Part shown: in pieces, positions 102 through 62,211 of the stretch | Position numbering within the stretch: position 1 is the first letter of the stretch | Layout: every line of letters starts with the position of its first letter | Assembly (NCBI RefSeq): GCF_024713945.1 | Contig: NC_134681.1 | Location: forward strand, 3,026,001 to 3,090,000 | DNA length: 64,000 nucleotides | Source of the DNA: Dermatophagoides farinae | Taxonomy: Eukaryota; Arthropoda; Arachnida; Sarcoptiformes; Pyroglyphidae | Direction: 5' to 3' | Position numbers and translations under genes: made by a program | Notes under the pieces: generated by a model | The model's input: only the letters and a program-made list of their open reading frames with translations | Databases searched by the model: none | Told to the model about the DNA's origin: nothing

Positions 102-3100
102 TCGAAGATTTTGAGCATTCTTTTTTGAATGAACACAAAATTCAATCAACGCGGTGACAATAGCAACGGCTAAACCACCCAATAATACGACAAATACGCC
201 ACCTATATTCTCGATACCCAATGCATTGGCTTTACCTTCTTTACTTTTATCATCACGTGAACATTTGATACCGGGACGTTTCCACCAACGATCATATAAC
301 ATACGAATGATACCTTTCTCTTGTAGATGCAGAATAGCCAAAGATATTTTATCACGCCATGGTGAACCTTGAATTCAGAATTGTCAGGATTTAAATCATT
401 AAAAAAAAAAAATAATAAATAAATAAGAGCCACTTACCTATTGGTGTTGCAATACCATAACCTTTTGAATCAAGCAGACCACCAATTTGCGTTAGATTAC
501 AATTGCGTTGTACCATATAATCCAACATTGTTGATTCCATCAAGAAGGCATAATTGCCTTCCAATACACGTTGTACACCTTCATCATATGTTTTAACAAA
601 AACCATTGGACGATTTTCCATAAAACGCCACATTTTTTGATAAGTTTCAATTTGTGAATCACGAAAAAATGTCATTGTTGATCCAGATTCCAGTGTACCA
701 TATTGGATACGTGATTGAGCAGCTAAATCTTCAACACTTTGTATCGGTGTGATCATACGTTCGACCGTTAAGAATGCAGCAAGATTGGCAGTATAAGAAC
801 TAACCAGAATTAATGTAAAAAACCACCATATGGCACCAATAATACGAGTACTAGCAGCTTTTGGATTCAAATCACATCCTTGGTGCATCAATGTTACAAT
901 GGTGAACCAAAATGAATTGGCCATTGAAAATTGATTCTCAAGTTTATTATTATCATTATCCTCATCATTGCCATTGGCGCCATAATATTGTGGATCCATT
1001 GCAGCAACACATGGATGTGATAATCGCCATTCATTTGGACTAAAACGTGCAACAACAAACATTGTCAATGAAACCAAAATATATGCCGCCAATACATAAA
1101 GCCATATATCAATATCTAATGGCGACATGAATGAAAATAATCTTGTTGGCATTGTTGATGGTAATTTGAACAGGATTCCAATGCCTAGATTCATATAGGG
1201 TTTTGTAAAATGTATAACACTTTCACGTGCATAATTTATTGTCATTGATGCAACGGCTAGGTCAGCATTCTAACAAATCAAAAATAAATAAACCAAATGA
1301 TCGGTTATTGTACAGTTGAAAAAACCATTGAAATTCAATTACCTTATCAATGATTTCACGAACCAAGCCATTCCATTCACCGGTAGTTGTATTCTCGGCA
1401 CCATATTTACCATCCGGTACTAGATATAATTCATATTGAAAATTCAACATTTCAGCAATCGCTTTGAGAAGATCAATACAGAAGCCTTCAAAATGATCAT
1501 TTGAATTATTCGTGGCAATTTGATTGTTTAGATTTTTCTTATAAAAAACATATGGTGTTGATTCAATGGTCGTCACTCGCAACGTAATGTTGGTTGTACC
1601 GAAATCCTGGAAAGCAGCATGATCGGTAATGTTGAGGCCAGCTACTGTAGACCATTCACCAACCTGTTTCATGCAAACAAACAAAAAACCCAACATATTA
1701 CATTTATAAATTATAAATCCAAAATCACTTTCTCTCATTTTTCGAATCAATGATCACAAATCACAAATTAAAAGATGCAAAAGTTAATCAACTACCATTA
1801 TTATTTAATCCAAATAGTGTATCTATGTGTGTGTGTTTAAGAAACAAATGTCTCAGGAATTCGATCGAAATTGTTCATCGATTTTTTCTTGCATCTCTAA
1901 TTAATTAATTCATTCTCTTATAAACAAAGGAGAAAAAACTTACTTTAGTTAAATTGCTTTGTCTTAATTTGAGCAGATCTAATTTCAATGAACTTCTGCG
2001 ACCTTCTTTGAATGTAATCGGTCCGGAAAGGCCACGAATGTCAACCTAAACAGCAAAAGCAAAAATTGTGTTGAAATGTAATCAATTTGATTTGATTTGG
2101 TCATGAAAACCAATAGTAATAGTAATGTAATGTATTTTCAATCATCAATCGTTTAATTACCGAATTAATATAATTGAATAAAGTACTACCATCTGGCCAT
2201 GGAGATTCTTCATCACATGATAGATTCGCTTGTCGTAGGATGGCGCCACGTTCCAGTGAATGTAAACCACGAGCAAACGTATAAACAGAATCAAATATTA
2301 ATGCCGGTTCGTACTATTTATTGGTTTGTCGGTTGATAATGGATAGATAATAGATAGTTGTAGATAAAATGTAATAATTCATATGGAGGATAGAGATAAA
2401 TATTTCATACCTGTATCACATTTGTACGATTCAATATTGGATGTCTTTTTGGTTGAAATTTCTCCATATCACGTAACACGGTTTTGACGGAAAAATTTTC
2501 CGAATCAACCATACGGAATGCGGTCAAATTGACGAAATTGTAACGGAAATTTTCCAGATCATAAATTTCAATGTCAAACGTTACAAAATGATAATGATAT
2601 TTATAGTTATTCATTTGTGTTTGTAAAATCTATTTGCAAATCAAAAATTGAATCAATCATCACTTGTTTTGTTCATTATTTTTCTAATGAAACCATTAAA
2701 ACTTACAGCATGTAAAATTTTTGGCAGACTTTCTGGACGCGTATCAATGATCAATGAGTAAACGCCACGTGTTCGTACATCGAGTAATACATCACGAAAT
2801 GACAGGGCATTTCCTTTGCGAAATATAAACTGTATCTGTTTACTTAATGGTGGCTTCACTAATTGCTGTAATTTAATCAATGCTACAGATTCCATAGATT
2901 TAAATAAAGTAAAACAAAAATTTATTCATCAAAACAACCACTACATACATACACATACACTTACATATATCATCTTCATAGATTACAGCAATTTTCGTCC
3001 AATTTAGATAGACAATCAAATCTCTTAATGCTTTGCCAATAATCATTGGTGATGGATATAGATTGATACTGAATTCTTTCAATTCGGTCTCCAAATCTAA

Positions 3101-57100: not shown

Positions 57101-60100
57101 TAAGGATCGCAATATTTTACCAAATACAACATTGATCTATGATATTGAGGTTTGTGTAAAAATGTAATTAGAACAGTGAATTGATTTTTGTTTCTTCATT
57201 TTCTCTCATATCATCATCATTCAGTATATATCACGTGATGATAGTTTCCATGCTGCGAAAAAAGCCTGTAAATTGATTCATGATGGCGCTGTTGCTATAT
57301 TTGGACCATCCGATGATCGTATCGGTGTACATGTACAATCAGTTTGTGATACATTAGATATACCGCATCTGGAAACACGTAAACATAATCTAAATATTGG
57401 CAAAGAATTTTCCATTAATCTGCATCCAGGAGCGTTTTCTGTTGCTCAATCAATTCGTGTATTGATCACATTTTTAAATTGGACAAGAATCGCTGTCATT
57501 TACGAGGATGATATTAGTAATTGAAATTAATGCGTGTGATTCGTTTTAATTTTCAAATTTTTTCCCACTAGATTTAATTGGCCTCCAAGAGCTAACAACA
57601 TTACCATTGGCAAAAAATGTACAATTCTTTTTTCGTAAAACACAACAGGATTCATTCCGGGAAACATTGATGGATCTTCGTGATCGAGAAATCTATACAA
57701 TGGTTGTCGATATACCACATGAACATTTACCGAGCTTTTTTACTGCGATCTTACAAATACAGATGAATGAGAATCGTTATCATTATCATTTTACAACATT
57801 TGTTAGTATTTTTATTTAGTTGATTTAGTTATTCATTAATTTTTTCTGTTTGATTGATTGAATCAAAATTAGGATCTCGAAATATTTGATCTTGAAGATT
57901 TCATGTATAATGAAGTGAATATTACTGCTTATCGAATTGTTGATTATTCCAATCCAATGATACGATCAATGTTGAAAGAGATGAGCAAATATCATCCAGA
58001 CATTGCTCGACAATTATTACATCAAAATCATTTGATTAAGGTAAGAGATTTTTGTTTTGCCAATTTTATTCAATCAATTGCAATCATCTTCAACAGGCTT
58101 CCTCTGCAATGATGTTTGATTCGGTTTATGCATTTGCACGTGGTTTAAATCAATTCTTTAAATCTGTCCATAATTTAGCCGAATTACATTCAGCAGCAAC
58201 ATTGACAGCAACAATGAATCAATCGAATCGTCAATCAGCATCATCATCATCATCGATAACAATGCTCAATAGTTTTGCATCATGCTCAAACGAGACTGCC
58301 TGGAATAATGGTCTTACATTATATAATTATATTGATTCGGTATTATTGATATTTTTCTTGTCTATTCGGAAATTGATTTTCGATTTTTCCTTTTTTACTT
58401 TGGACAAGCTATCATTCCATGGAATGACCGGTCCAGTCATGTTTAAAGAAGGCATTCGTCATAATATGAGAATGGAATTATTAAAATTGCGTAATTTTCG
58501 CCTGGAAAAAGTTGGTGAATTTTTCTACAGTAATTCATTATTGAATATAACAAATATGGATGCATTTTTGACATCCAAACAACGTAATGTTACATTACGT
58601 GTTACAACGGTTAAGGTTTGTACTTTTTTCAAATTTTTTGTTGTCGTAAAAAAAGTTTCCATTTAATAATTGATGAAATTGGATAATCAATCAATCAAAA
58701 ATAGATGGAGCCCTATATACGTCGAATGCGTTCAAGTAATAAATCATTTGAATTGAAACCACTGCAAATGGAAACAATAAGATATGAAGGTTATTGTATT
58801 GATCTACTGAGTGCAATTGCTAAAAATCTTGGTTTCACATATGAATTATATGAAGTTGAAGATGGTAGATTCGGTGCACTCGACGAACAGACCGGTGAAT
58901 GGCATGGTCTTGTACGTGAATTAATTGATAAAGTATGTTGTCAAAATATTTTTTGTACAAATGTATGATTAAACATCAATCATAAATCTTTTCTTTTTTT
59001 TCTTATTGCAACTTCAGCGAGCTGACCTAGCAATCGGACCGTTGACAATAAGTTATGCGCGTGAAAATGTAATCGATTTCACTAAACCATACATGAATTT
59101 AGGTATCGGTATCCTGTTCAAAATGCCTACACATGCACCGACACGTTTATTTTCATTCATGTCACCACTCGCTGTTGATATTTGGCTTTATGTTGTTGCT
59201 GCTTACGTTTTGGTTAGTTCGACATTATTCATTGTGGCAAGATTTAGTCCATATGAATGGATTAATCCACATCCATGTATACCGGATTCAGAATCAATCA
59301 AAATTAATCAATTTAATCTGGCTGATTCATTTTGGTTCACAGTGGTTACGCTAATGAAACAAGGATGTGATATGAATCCAAAATCAATGTCTACACGAAT
59401 TATTGGTGCAATTTGGTGGTTTTTTACATTAATCCTAATTAGTTCATATACAGCTAATCTTGCTGCATTCTTAACTGTTGAACGTATTACAACACCAATT
59501 GAAAGTGTAGAAGATTTAGCTCATCAATCAAAAATTCGTTATGGTACATTACGTAATAGTAGTACGATGAGCTTTTTTCGTGATTCTAAATTTCCGATCT
59601 ATCAGAAAATGTGGCAATTTATGGAAAAACATCCAGAGAATTTCGCCGCAAGTTATGAAGAAGGCCGTAAACGTGTATTGATGGGTGATTATGCATTCTT
59701 AATGGAATCAACAATGATCGATTATATGGTACAACGTGATTGCAATCTTGTACAAATTGGTGGCCTACTCGATTCAAAAGGGTATGGTATCGCAACACAA
59801 ATGGGTACGTATTAATATTTCGGCCTTTACGTATTATTTGTCACATAATTGATAATGTTTTCGTGTGTGTGTGCCTGTATGAATAGGATCCGAATGGAAA
59901 GATAAAATTTCGTTATCAATACTTGGCCTACAGGAAAATGGTGAATTACAAATGATCTATGATAAATGGTGGAAAAGTCCTGGTCTTACTTGTACGGATG
60001 AATTGAAGAATAAAGATGGTAAAGCTAATCCATTAGGTTTAGGCAATATTGGTGGTGTATTCGTTGTGCTATTACTTGGATTGGTAGCAGCAATGATATC

Positions 60101-60302
60101 TGCATTTCTTGAATTTATGACACAAAGATCTCGACAACGTACGCCATTCACATCGATTATTTTGGATCAACATTATCATCAACATCAACATCAACAGCAG
60201 CAACAGCAACAACAACGAAAACAAAGTCGAAATGATCCAAACCAGGGTGATGATGCCAATATTTTGAATAATAGTGATTCATCACAAACACATATTTATT
60301 GA
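52184..60302 (+). CDS. Kainate-type ionotropic glutamate receptor subunit (KAR-B), complete
   Basis: This is a subunit of a glutamate-gated cation channel and a paralogue of KAR-A. The coding exons are 52184-52688, 56821-57149, 57225-57516, 57572-57801, 57873-58040, 58097-58339, 58409-58615, 58705-58932, 59018-59804 and 59887-60302. All have GT-AG introns and join in frame to 1134 aa. The protein has a His/Gln-rich N-terminal extension, signal segment (about 87-104), amino-terminal domain (about 166-580), S1 from about 650, M1 (about 785-810), pore loop (about 836-853) and M3 with SYTANLAAF (about 877-885). S2 follows, then M4 (about 1051-1073) and a Gln/His-rich cytoplasmic tail. Glutamate-site residues are visible: GPLTISYARE in S1, NSSTMSFF and LMEST in S2. 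The pore Q/R position is Lys848. The start may instead be 52328, which gives a 38-residue lead before the signal core. Confidence 0.93.
53331..53355. other. GC-rich 9-bp hairpin followed by a T run
   Basis: GCCGGATAT (53331-53339) pairs with ATATCCGGC (53347-53355) across a 7-nt loop, and TTCGTATTTTTTT follows. It stands out in an AT-rich intron. Confidence 0.45.
53470..53496. repeat. (TCATA)5 tandem pentamer
   Basis: Five exact copies of TCATA plus two bases, in KAR-B intron 1. Confidence 0.85.
54044..54109. repeat. (TG)33 microsatellite
   Basis: 66 bp of uninterrupted TG, the longest simple repeat in the window, in KAR-B intron 1. The length suggests it is polymorphic and capable of Z-DNA. 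Confidence 0.95.
59018..59804 (+). CDS. KAR-B exon 9: S1 end, M1, pore loop, M3 and S2
   Basis: This 787-nt exon carries the channel core, with RADLAIGPLTISYARE in S1, M1, the pore helix SFWFTVVTLMKQG, M3 with SYTANLAAF, then S2. It corresponds to KAR-A exon 9 with identical boundaries (IDK/RAD and QMG/S). It lacks the acidic M1-pore linker insert of KAR-A. The AAA codon at 59357-59359 is the Q/R position. Confidence 0.94.
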
Positions 60303-60759: not shown

Positions 60760-62211
60760 ATGAATTTTTCGCTCTTTCTATCATTATGGTGGATTTTTCC
60801 AATATTTACAAGTGCCATCACCAATTCCTCCGATTATTCAAGTTTGTATTTCTTTTTTTTCAATTTCACCATAAAAAATTTAAAATATTTTACACACACA
60901 CACACACACAAATAGTGATTTCAGCAATTCGTAATAAAATATTTAATGGTTATGATCCAATGGCTCATCCAGTAATCAATCATACACATCCAATAAGTGT
61001 ACGAATGAAAATGCGTTTATTACATTTTGGTCTAGATTCTCGCCAGAGTTTACTCAATTTTCATAGCTATTTTCGTATCGAATGGTAAGATTTTTTTCCA
61101 AATGAAATGTTATTATTAATAAAATGGTCACACAGGTCAGATCCATATCTTAAATGGAATAAAAGTGAATTTCGTGGTATAAAACGAATCAATGTTCATA
61201 TGGATGATGTATTCACACCGGATTTAATTCTATACAATTCAATACAACCAACGAATATGATGAAAAAATTTAATCACACTGAATTGATTATTACATATGA
61301 TGGCACAATATTTTGGTCACCATTACTACGGATGCAATCATTTTGTAAGCTAGATCTTTATAATTGGCCATATGACCAACAAAGTTGTTCACTTATATTT
61401 ATATCATGGTCATATCCAGCCGATGCATTGGCTCTTTACATTTCTAGTAAGTGAAAAAACTTAATTGAGCGTTATTGATTGGTTTTTTGTTCTCTCTCTC
61501 TCTTTCCCTCTGTGTCTCTCCTTTTAAAAAGCTAAATCAATAAATCTACGGGATTTATGGCCAAATAATGAATGGAAAATAATTAATTCAACATGTGATA
61601 CAATAATTGTTAGTGATATTCCTGGCCGTCCAAATATGTTTTTTCCCGGTGTACAATATAAGATATTTATGCAGCGTCGTCAAACACCGTATTCCTATCT
61701 AATCAATATTCCAATCATATGCACGGTTATTTTGAATGTTATATCGTTGAGTTTGGTAAATCCAAAACGAAAAATTCGATTTCACTTGAATCAGCTAAGT
61801 TTTTTCATCATTCTATTCATATCATTTTATCCATCATACATATTGGGTCCAGCAATGTTTGGTACAACTCAACTTGTAAAATTTCTTGGTTCAATGTTAA
61901 TCACAAACGCTTCATTAATGTTTTGGTCTACAATAGCCAGCAATGTAATCGAATCAAAATCAAATCGAATTGCCGAAAAAATATGGAATTATATTACTGA
62001 ACCAGCATTACATTGGCGATTAATTCAATCATTCAATCATTATGATATTTATGATAATGATGCTAATGATGATGATAATGATCGACAATCAATTATCAAT
62101 CAACAACAACAACAACAACAACGAAAACAAAATTTTCTATTTGTATTACTCGTTGATCGTATATTATTGATCATATTCCTGATTATATTCTTTATATTTC
62201 ATAGATTTTGA
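60760..62211 (+). CDS. Divergent nicotinic acetylcholine receptor-like Cys-loop subunit
   Basis: This would be a subunit of a pentameric ligand-gated channel. The exons are 60760-60841, 60916-61084, 61136-61446 and 61532-62211, giving 413 aa in frame. The start gives a clear signal peptide (MNFSLFLSLWWIFPIFTSA). Residues 84-118 match the nAChR pattern (WSDPYLKWN, then VFTPDLILYN). The Cys-loop is C154-C168 with 13 residues between and WPYDQQ inside; loop B Trp is W175. There is no vicinal Cys pair in loop C, so it is non-alpha. M1 is about 240-262 (Pro248 kept), M2 about 269-292, M3 about 303-326 and M4 about 390-413 (LLVDRILLIIF). The M3-M4 loop is short, with Asp and Gln runs. M2 is unusual: the flank reads NPKRKIRF, with no acidic residue. 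Family assignment is firm; ligand and ion selectivity are unknown. Confidence 0.88.

Follow-up and report, generated by a model that had tools for sequence, protein, structure and literature searches.

The window analysed here is a stretch of 64,000 nucleotides from the genome of Dermatophagoides farinae (C5:3026001-3090000 of a 62.4 Mb, 22-contig genome); coordinates given without a contig are window positions. Elsewhere in this genome, a group 2 allergen homologue (L025) has Der p 2 and Der f 2 as its best matches among PDB structures, which points to an astigmatan mite. On its plus strand, at 57225-60302, the window contains most of a kainate-type receptor gene, KAR-B, with the amino-terminal domain, the ligand-binding segments S1 and S2, the membrane segments M1, M3 and M4, and the pore loop. 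A paralogue, KAR-A, is encoded on the minus strand near the opposite end. The features of both genes are as follows.

57225..57516, +, KAR-B amino-terminal-domain exon; borders by GT-AG and comparison with KAR-A; ANF_receptor match at 57234-57515
57572..57801, +, KAR-B amino-terminal-domain exon; without a Pfam match of its own
57873..58040, +, KAR-B amino-terminal-domain exon; borders read from sequence
58097..58339, +, KAR-B amino-terminal-domain exon; borders read from sequence
58409..58615, +, KAR-B exon at the transition to the ligand-binding domain
58705..58932, +, KAR-B exon encoding ligand-binding segment S1; Pfam Lig_chan-Glu_bd
59018..59804, +, KAR-B exon encoding the end of S1, M1, pore loop M2, M3 (SYTANLAAF) and S2; Pfam and GluK2 alignment
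59357..59359, +, Q/R-site codon AAA (Lys) of KAR-B; read and aligned
59369..59371, +, +4-site codon GAT (Asp) of KAR-B; acidic residue retained
59887..60302, +, last KAR-B exon, encoding the end of S2, M4, tail and stop codon; M4 read from sequence, without a Pfam match above the cut-off
436..1269, -, KAR-A exon homologous to KAR-B 59018-59804
883..885, -, Q/R-site codon CAC (His) of KAR-A; read and aligned

The exons of KAR-B have GT-AG borders and end with a stop codon at 60300-60302. They were joined from genomic DNA alone, with the outer exon borders and M4 assigned by reading the sequence; the first exon or exons and the signal peptide were not located. Consecutive exons match the Pfam families ANF_receptor, Lig_chan-Glu_bd and Lig_chan, which represent the kainate-type domain set in one gene. 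In translation, the frame is uninterrupted from the ligand-binding domain to the stop after M4, and the open reading frame around the pore exon extends from 58973 to 59815. According to the aligned rows, KAR-B retains the SYTANLAAF gate and the ligand residues PLT...R, SST and E, which we take to be glutamate-contact residues. Ser, Thr and Tyr are found at positions 653, 655 and 732, mapped here onto the numbering of PMC12226733, where these positions are tied to glutamate specificity. The publications cited here were available as partial text, and what is drawn from them refers to that text.

Directly downstream of KAR-B, a nicotinic-receptor-like ligand-binding domain (Neur_chan_LBD) is encoded at 61089-61451. 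It is followed by an open reading frame (61528-62208) that has no Pfam match and resembles divergent transmembrane segments.

Class assignment and kinship of KAR-B and KAR-A

Among the best 60 of 334 matches of KAR-B to PDB sequences, the top scores of 353-363 bits belong to 7ysv (unnamed), followed by GluK2, GluK1 and GluK3, and the best GluA sequence reaches 306 bits. The pore exon (59018-59804) is 60% identical to GluK2 and 54% identical to L022, an AMPA-like paralogue whose best match is GluA. At the level of sequence, KAR-B is closer to GluK than to GluA, GluN or IR sequences.

Over the pore exon, KAR-A and KAR-B share 73% identity; they are less similar to a pair of GluK rows (60-62%) and to the remaining paralogues (51-59%). 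FastTree places the two as sisters with a support of 0.986, whereas IQ-TREE, run with a masked Q/R column, gives this grouping a support of just 74. The tree included only two outside sequences and left out the NMDA-type L018 and L019. For the pore/S2 exon of the pair, the NG86 method yields a dN of 0.205, a dS of 0.889 and a dN/dS of about 0.23. As judged from these substitution rates, the pair is constrained on average over this one exon, which makes decay unlikely. With the frame and motifs of KAR-B intact as well, its classification as a pseudogene was judged unlikely. Protein scans of two further collections, which cover viruses and prokaryotes and are thus uninformative on mites, yielded no orthologue: the viral contigs gave one pattern match and no relative, and the genome contigs gave one 31-residue match in a bacterial contig (L032), which was rejected as an orthologue.

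The pore Q/R site in KAR-B and across the genome

The Q/R site is the classic calcium-entry switch of AMPA and kainate receptors, and mammals reach its charged state by RNA editing. An earlier note on this DNA had claimed that KAR-B carries a genomically encoded positive charge at this pore position, and the present analysis confirms it. The pore DNA reads GTG GTT ACG CTA ATG AAA CAA GGA TGT GAT, with AAA exactly at 59357-59359. In a phmmer search against PDB sequences (265 query residues, E ~1e-107), the encoded Lys aligns to the leading Gln of the LMQQG motif of GluK2 (5kuf), which we take to be the Q/R site; the same alignment is obtained for the top PDB chain 7ysv, which bears no more specific name than 'Glutamate receptor'. 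In the alignment with GluK2, the closest gap is located 18 residues upstream of the Lys, and from there the alignment is ungapped through M3. Since the pore exon is 60% identical to the solved GluK2, the place of the residue in the structure is already fixed. The four-residue spacing to the retained acidic residue is the same as that between Q586 and D/E590 of GluA2 (PMC6307864).

At this site KAR-B has Lys and not Gln, the residue that is usual but not class-defining; natural variation of the site and the role of the +4 site are both described in PMC6307864 and PMC12226733. In the former, 84 of 122 iGluRs from newly described groups retain an acidic +4 residue, and Gln occupies the Q/R site in no more than a third 'of these proteins', among them the majority of AKDF and non-ctenophore epsilon members. 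In the latter, epsilon receptors variously carry Ser, Leu, Ala, Gly or Phe at the site, and AKDF receptors are perhaps the least variable there. An expansion of kainate receptors in arthropods has been described (PMC6307864).

To place the residue among its relatives, the genome was surveyed for Lig_chan (PF00060). At least 35 matches are present, several of them exons of one gene, and all 35 were inspected: 21 in L001-L008 and L013-L019, and 14 in L033-L046. Of the latter, ten could be aligned with KAR-B using tblastn, and every one of the 14 was read in translation. The 35 matches include ten AMPA/kainate-type genes. Eight of them have Gln at the Q/R site, encoded by CAA in seven cases and by CAG in one, while His (KAR-A) and Lys (KAR-B) occur once each. 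The motifs as read suggest that the remaining Lig_chan genes are NMDA-type or IR-type. The further claim that both paralogues of the window deviate from Gln in different ways therefore holds, with TLMHQGCD in KAR-A versus TLMKQGCD in KAR-B. Their codons, CAC and AAA, are each one base away from CAA.

A column count was performed on the alignment, with the NMDA- and IR-type rows left out and the pore stretches of L013, L014, L016 and L017 filled in from raw translations. Of 263 aligned columns, 67 show one and the same residue in GluK2 and all eight paralogues with Gln. KAR-B departs at three of these and KAR-A at five, and two are common to both: a shared F>Y exchange and the Q/R site (K versus H). 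The latter is the only one of the 67 columns at which both genes depart and also differ from each other. A like count for the other eight paralogues gave 0 to 8 departures at 61 to 69 columns, so the totals for KAR-A and KAR-B are unremarkable and it is the location that stands out. This per-paralogue count had KAR-A and KAR-B among its references, which kept the Q/R column out of it; the Gln of the eight paralogues rests on the separate codon reading. The eight are not fully independent, since L020 and L021 are 95% identical.

Several other peculiarities were observed in the aligned genes. In KAR-A, Met and His are encoded at 1266-1207 (-), at positions that are Leu and Asp in GluK2 and in all eight paralogues with Gln, resulting in SMT versus PLT or DLT elsewhere and in VIH versus VID or AVD elsewhere. 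In GluK2 the replaced Asp presumably belongs to the sodium-binding site, and because it is His in KAR-A, the ion dependence of this subunit may differ too. A kainate-type pair on different contigs (C2:283839-284666 and C5:687368-688195) is 95% identical over the pore/S2 region, which suggests a recent duplication or gene conversion. The kainate-type L016 (C2:3288000-3296000, minus strand, near local 3333) has Ala in place of the acidic +4 residue (MMQQGSAVAPK), from which a loss of polyamine block is predicted. In L014 (C5:3205000-3214000, plus strand, near local 4449), Ala replaces Gly at pore position +2 (LMQQASD). Unusual pore-loop tips, LFGAAVP and LFSHLVA, are found in the NMDA-type L018 (C7:3618000-3626000, plus strand, near local 4319) and L039 (C10:1573000-1574000), which by their motifs are presumably GluN2-like; the GluN2 pore-loop tip is Asn-rich.

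Alternative explanations for the AAA codon

The earlier note had also raised the possibility that AAA is a substrate of A-to-I editing to AGA, which would give the mature channel an Arg. The genome does encode an ADAR-type deaminase (C8:3655154-3656375), one exon of which (51 residues) has ADAR2 as its best solved-structure match (E 1e-7). The surroundings of the codon do not favour editing: within 3 kb of the codon, no ungapped stretch pairs with more than 28 of the 41 bases surrounding it, compared with a median best of 29 and a 95th percentile of 32 for 200 random window positions, in a search that a bulged duplex could escape. The site adenosine is unpaired in four of five local folds of different sizes, and an exchange of Lys for Arg would barely alter the charge. 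Edited receptors combine an Arg derived from an edited Gln codon with a complementary element; KAR-B has AAA, and the ungapped search found no such element. Editing of this codon is thus regarded as exceedingly improbable. An error of sequencing or assembly, or a private allele in a species whose norm is CAA (Gln), is also very unlikely. CAA is only one base away from AAA, but the frame and the neighbouring pore residues are intact, and a faulty codon in KAR-B would leave the loss of Gln at the same position of KAR-A unexplained.

The departure of both sister genes from Gln towards two different residues is what relaxed constraint predicts, and the filter also varies elsewhere in two paralogues (MQQASD in L014, MQQGSA in L016). 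KAR-B could on these grounds be a modulatory or poorly conducting subunit that has lost the constraint on the Q/R site and acts chiefly on the assembly, the trafficking or the agonist affinity of heteromers. Apart from this site, however, pore and gate have hardly changed, with KAR-B departing at only three of the 67 invariant columns and retaining TLM-QGCD, M3 and the +4 Asp. The low dN/dS of the pair points in the same direction, though it is averaged over one exon. A loss of constraint is therefore considered unlikely, if less so than an error or editing.

Predicted role of a fixed pore charge

The preferred reading, to which we assign a probability of about 0.6, is that KAR-B is a working kainate-type subunit whose fixed pore charge would limit calcium entry in heteromers. 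Its expression, assembly partners and permeation properties are inferred. The Lys would place a fixed positive charge at the narrowest part of the pore. One or more such residues per tetramer would repel divalent cations, resulting in low calcium permeability and a smaller single-channel conductance, and polyamine block of the channels might be weaker. A homomer with four Lys would conduct poorly, so KAR-B is most likely heteromeric, with a Gln-bearing subunit or KAR-A (His) as the candidate partner. This would be comparable to the edited GluA2(R), which sets the calcium permeability of AMPA heteromers. The Q/R-edited forms of GluK2 and GluK1 (and of GluA2) share with KAR-B the domain order, the pore site and the positive charge in the mature protein; their charge is an Arg obtained by editing of Gln, whereas that of KAR-B is a genome-encoded Lys.

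The role as a calcium-limiting subunit of heteromers is proposed because of published precedents with Arg or Lys at this site. Q/R editing renders GluK1- and GluK2-containing receptors calcium-impermeable (PMC12580572). A further parallel is Drosophila GluRIIA, an arthropod kainate-type subunit, in which Q615R places a positive charge at the orthologous site and reduces calcium influx with unchanged receptor abundance (PMC9741633); this Arg is engineered, the natural fly subunit having Gln, whereas the Lys of KAR-B is natural. According to PMC12226733, an exchange of Asn for Lys at the homologous site of GluN2A severely reduces calcium permeation, and receptors with four Arg at the site conduct poorly. 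Human NR3B (GluN3B) resembles KAR-B in that the genome itself specifies a positive charge at the homologous position, with natural Arg at the N and N+1 sites, and differs in belonging to the glycine-binding NMDA family and in having Arg; replacing its N+1 Arg did not raise calcium permeability (PMC2974739). The placozoan GluE1alphaA likewise has a natural non-Gln residue at the Q/R/N site, in this case a neutral Ser in an epsilon-family receptor, and this residue was shown to reduce both the permeation of calcium and the block by polyamines (PMC12226733).

Low calcium permeability, as anticipated in the earlier note, remains the leading prediction for KAR-B and is backed by analogy with GluRIIA Q615R and the GluN2A Asn-to-Lys exchange. 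The accompanying prediction of weak polyamine block is less certain and may fail, because the +4 Asp is kept and the placozoan receptor rectified more strongly with Arg at this site than with its native Ser (PMC12226733). The charged pore could also act mainly through lowered surface expression, a caution that arises from GluRIIA M614R, whose overexpression in flies caused a general receptor knockdown (PMC9741633).

A wider reading of both genes together is put forward tentatively and is itself rather doubtful. The lineage may have swapped an editable Gln for a hardwired Lys in KAR-B and a His in KAR-A; if the two co-assemble, calcium permeability would be set by the choice of gene instead of by RNA editing, and conductance would perhaps depend on pH via the pore His.

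Some fish GluA2 genes encode Arg directly. Given these genes and the Arg of NR3B, the principle of a hardwired charge in this position is already known; what is new within the literature searched is a Lys with a His sister in the kainate clade. In that literature, whose scope excluded most subscription journals, we found no AMPA or kainate subunit described as naturally carrying Lys or His at the Q/R site, and the available parts of PMC5225553 and PMC8667807 contain nothing bearing on this site. By analogy with the charged forms described above, channels with KAR-B would probably pass little calcium without RNA editing. A natural Lys in an arthropod kainate receptor would thus be a hardwired version of the edited state of mammals, and the Lys/His sister pair offers a test of how permeation at invertebrate synapses is adjusted by the charge of a single residue.
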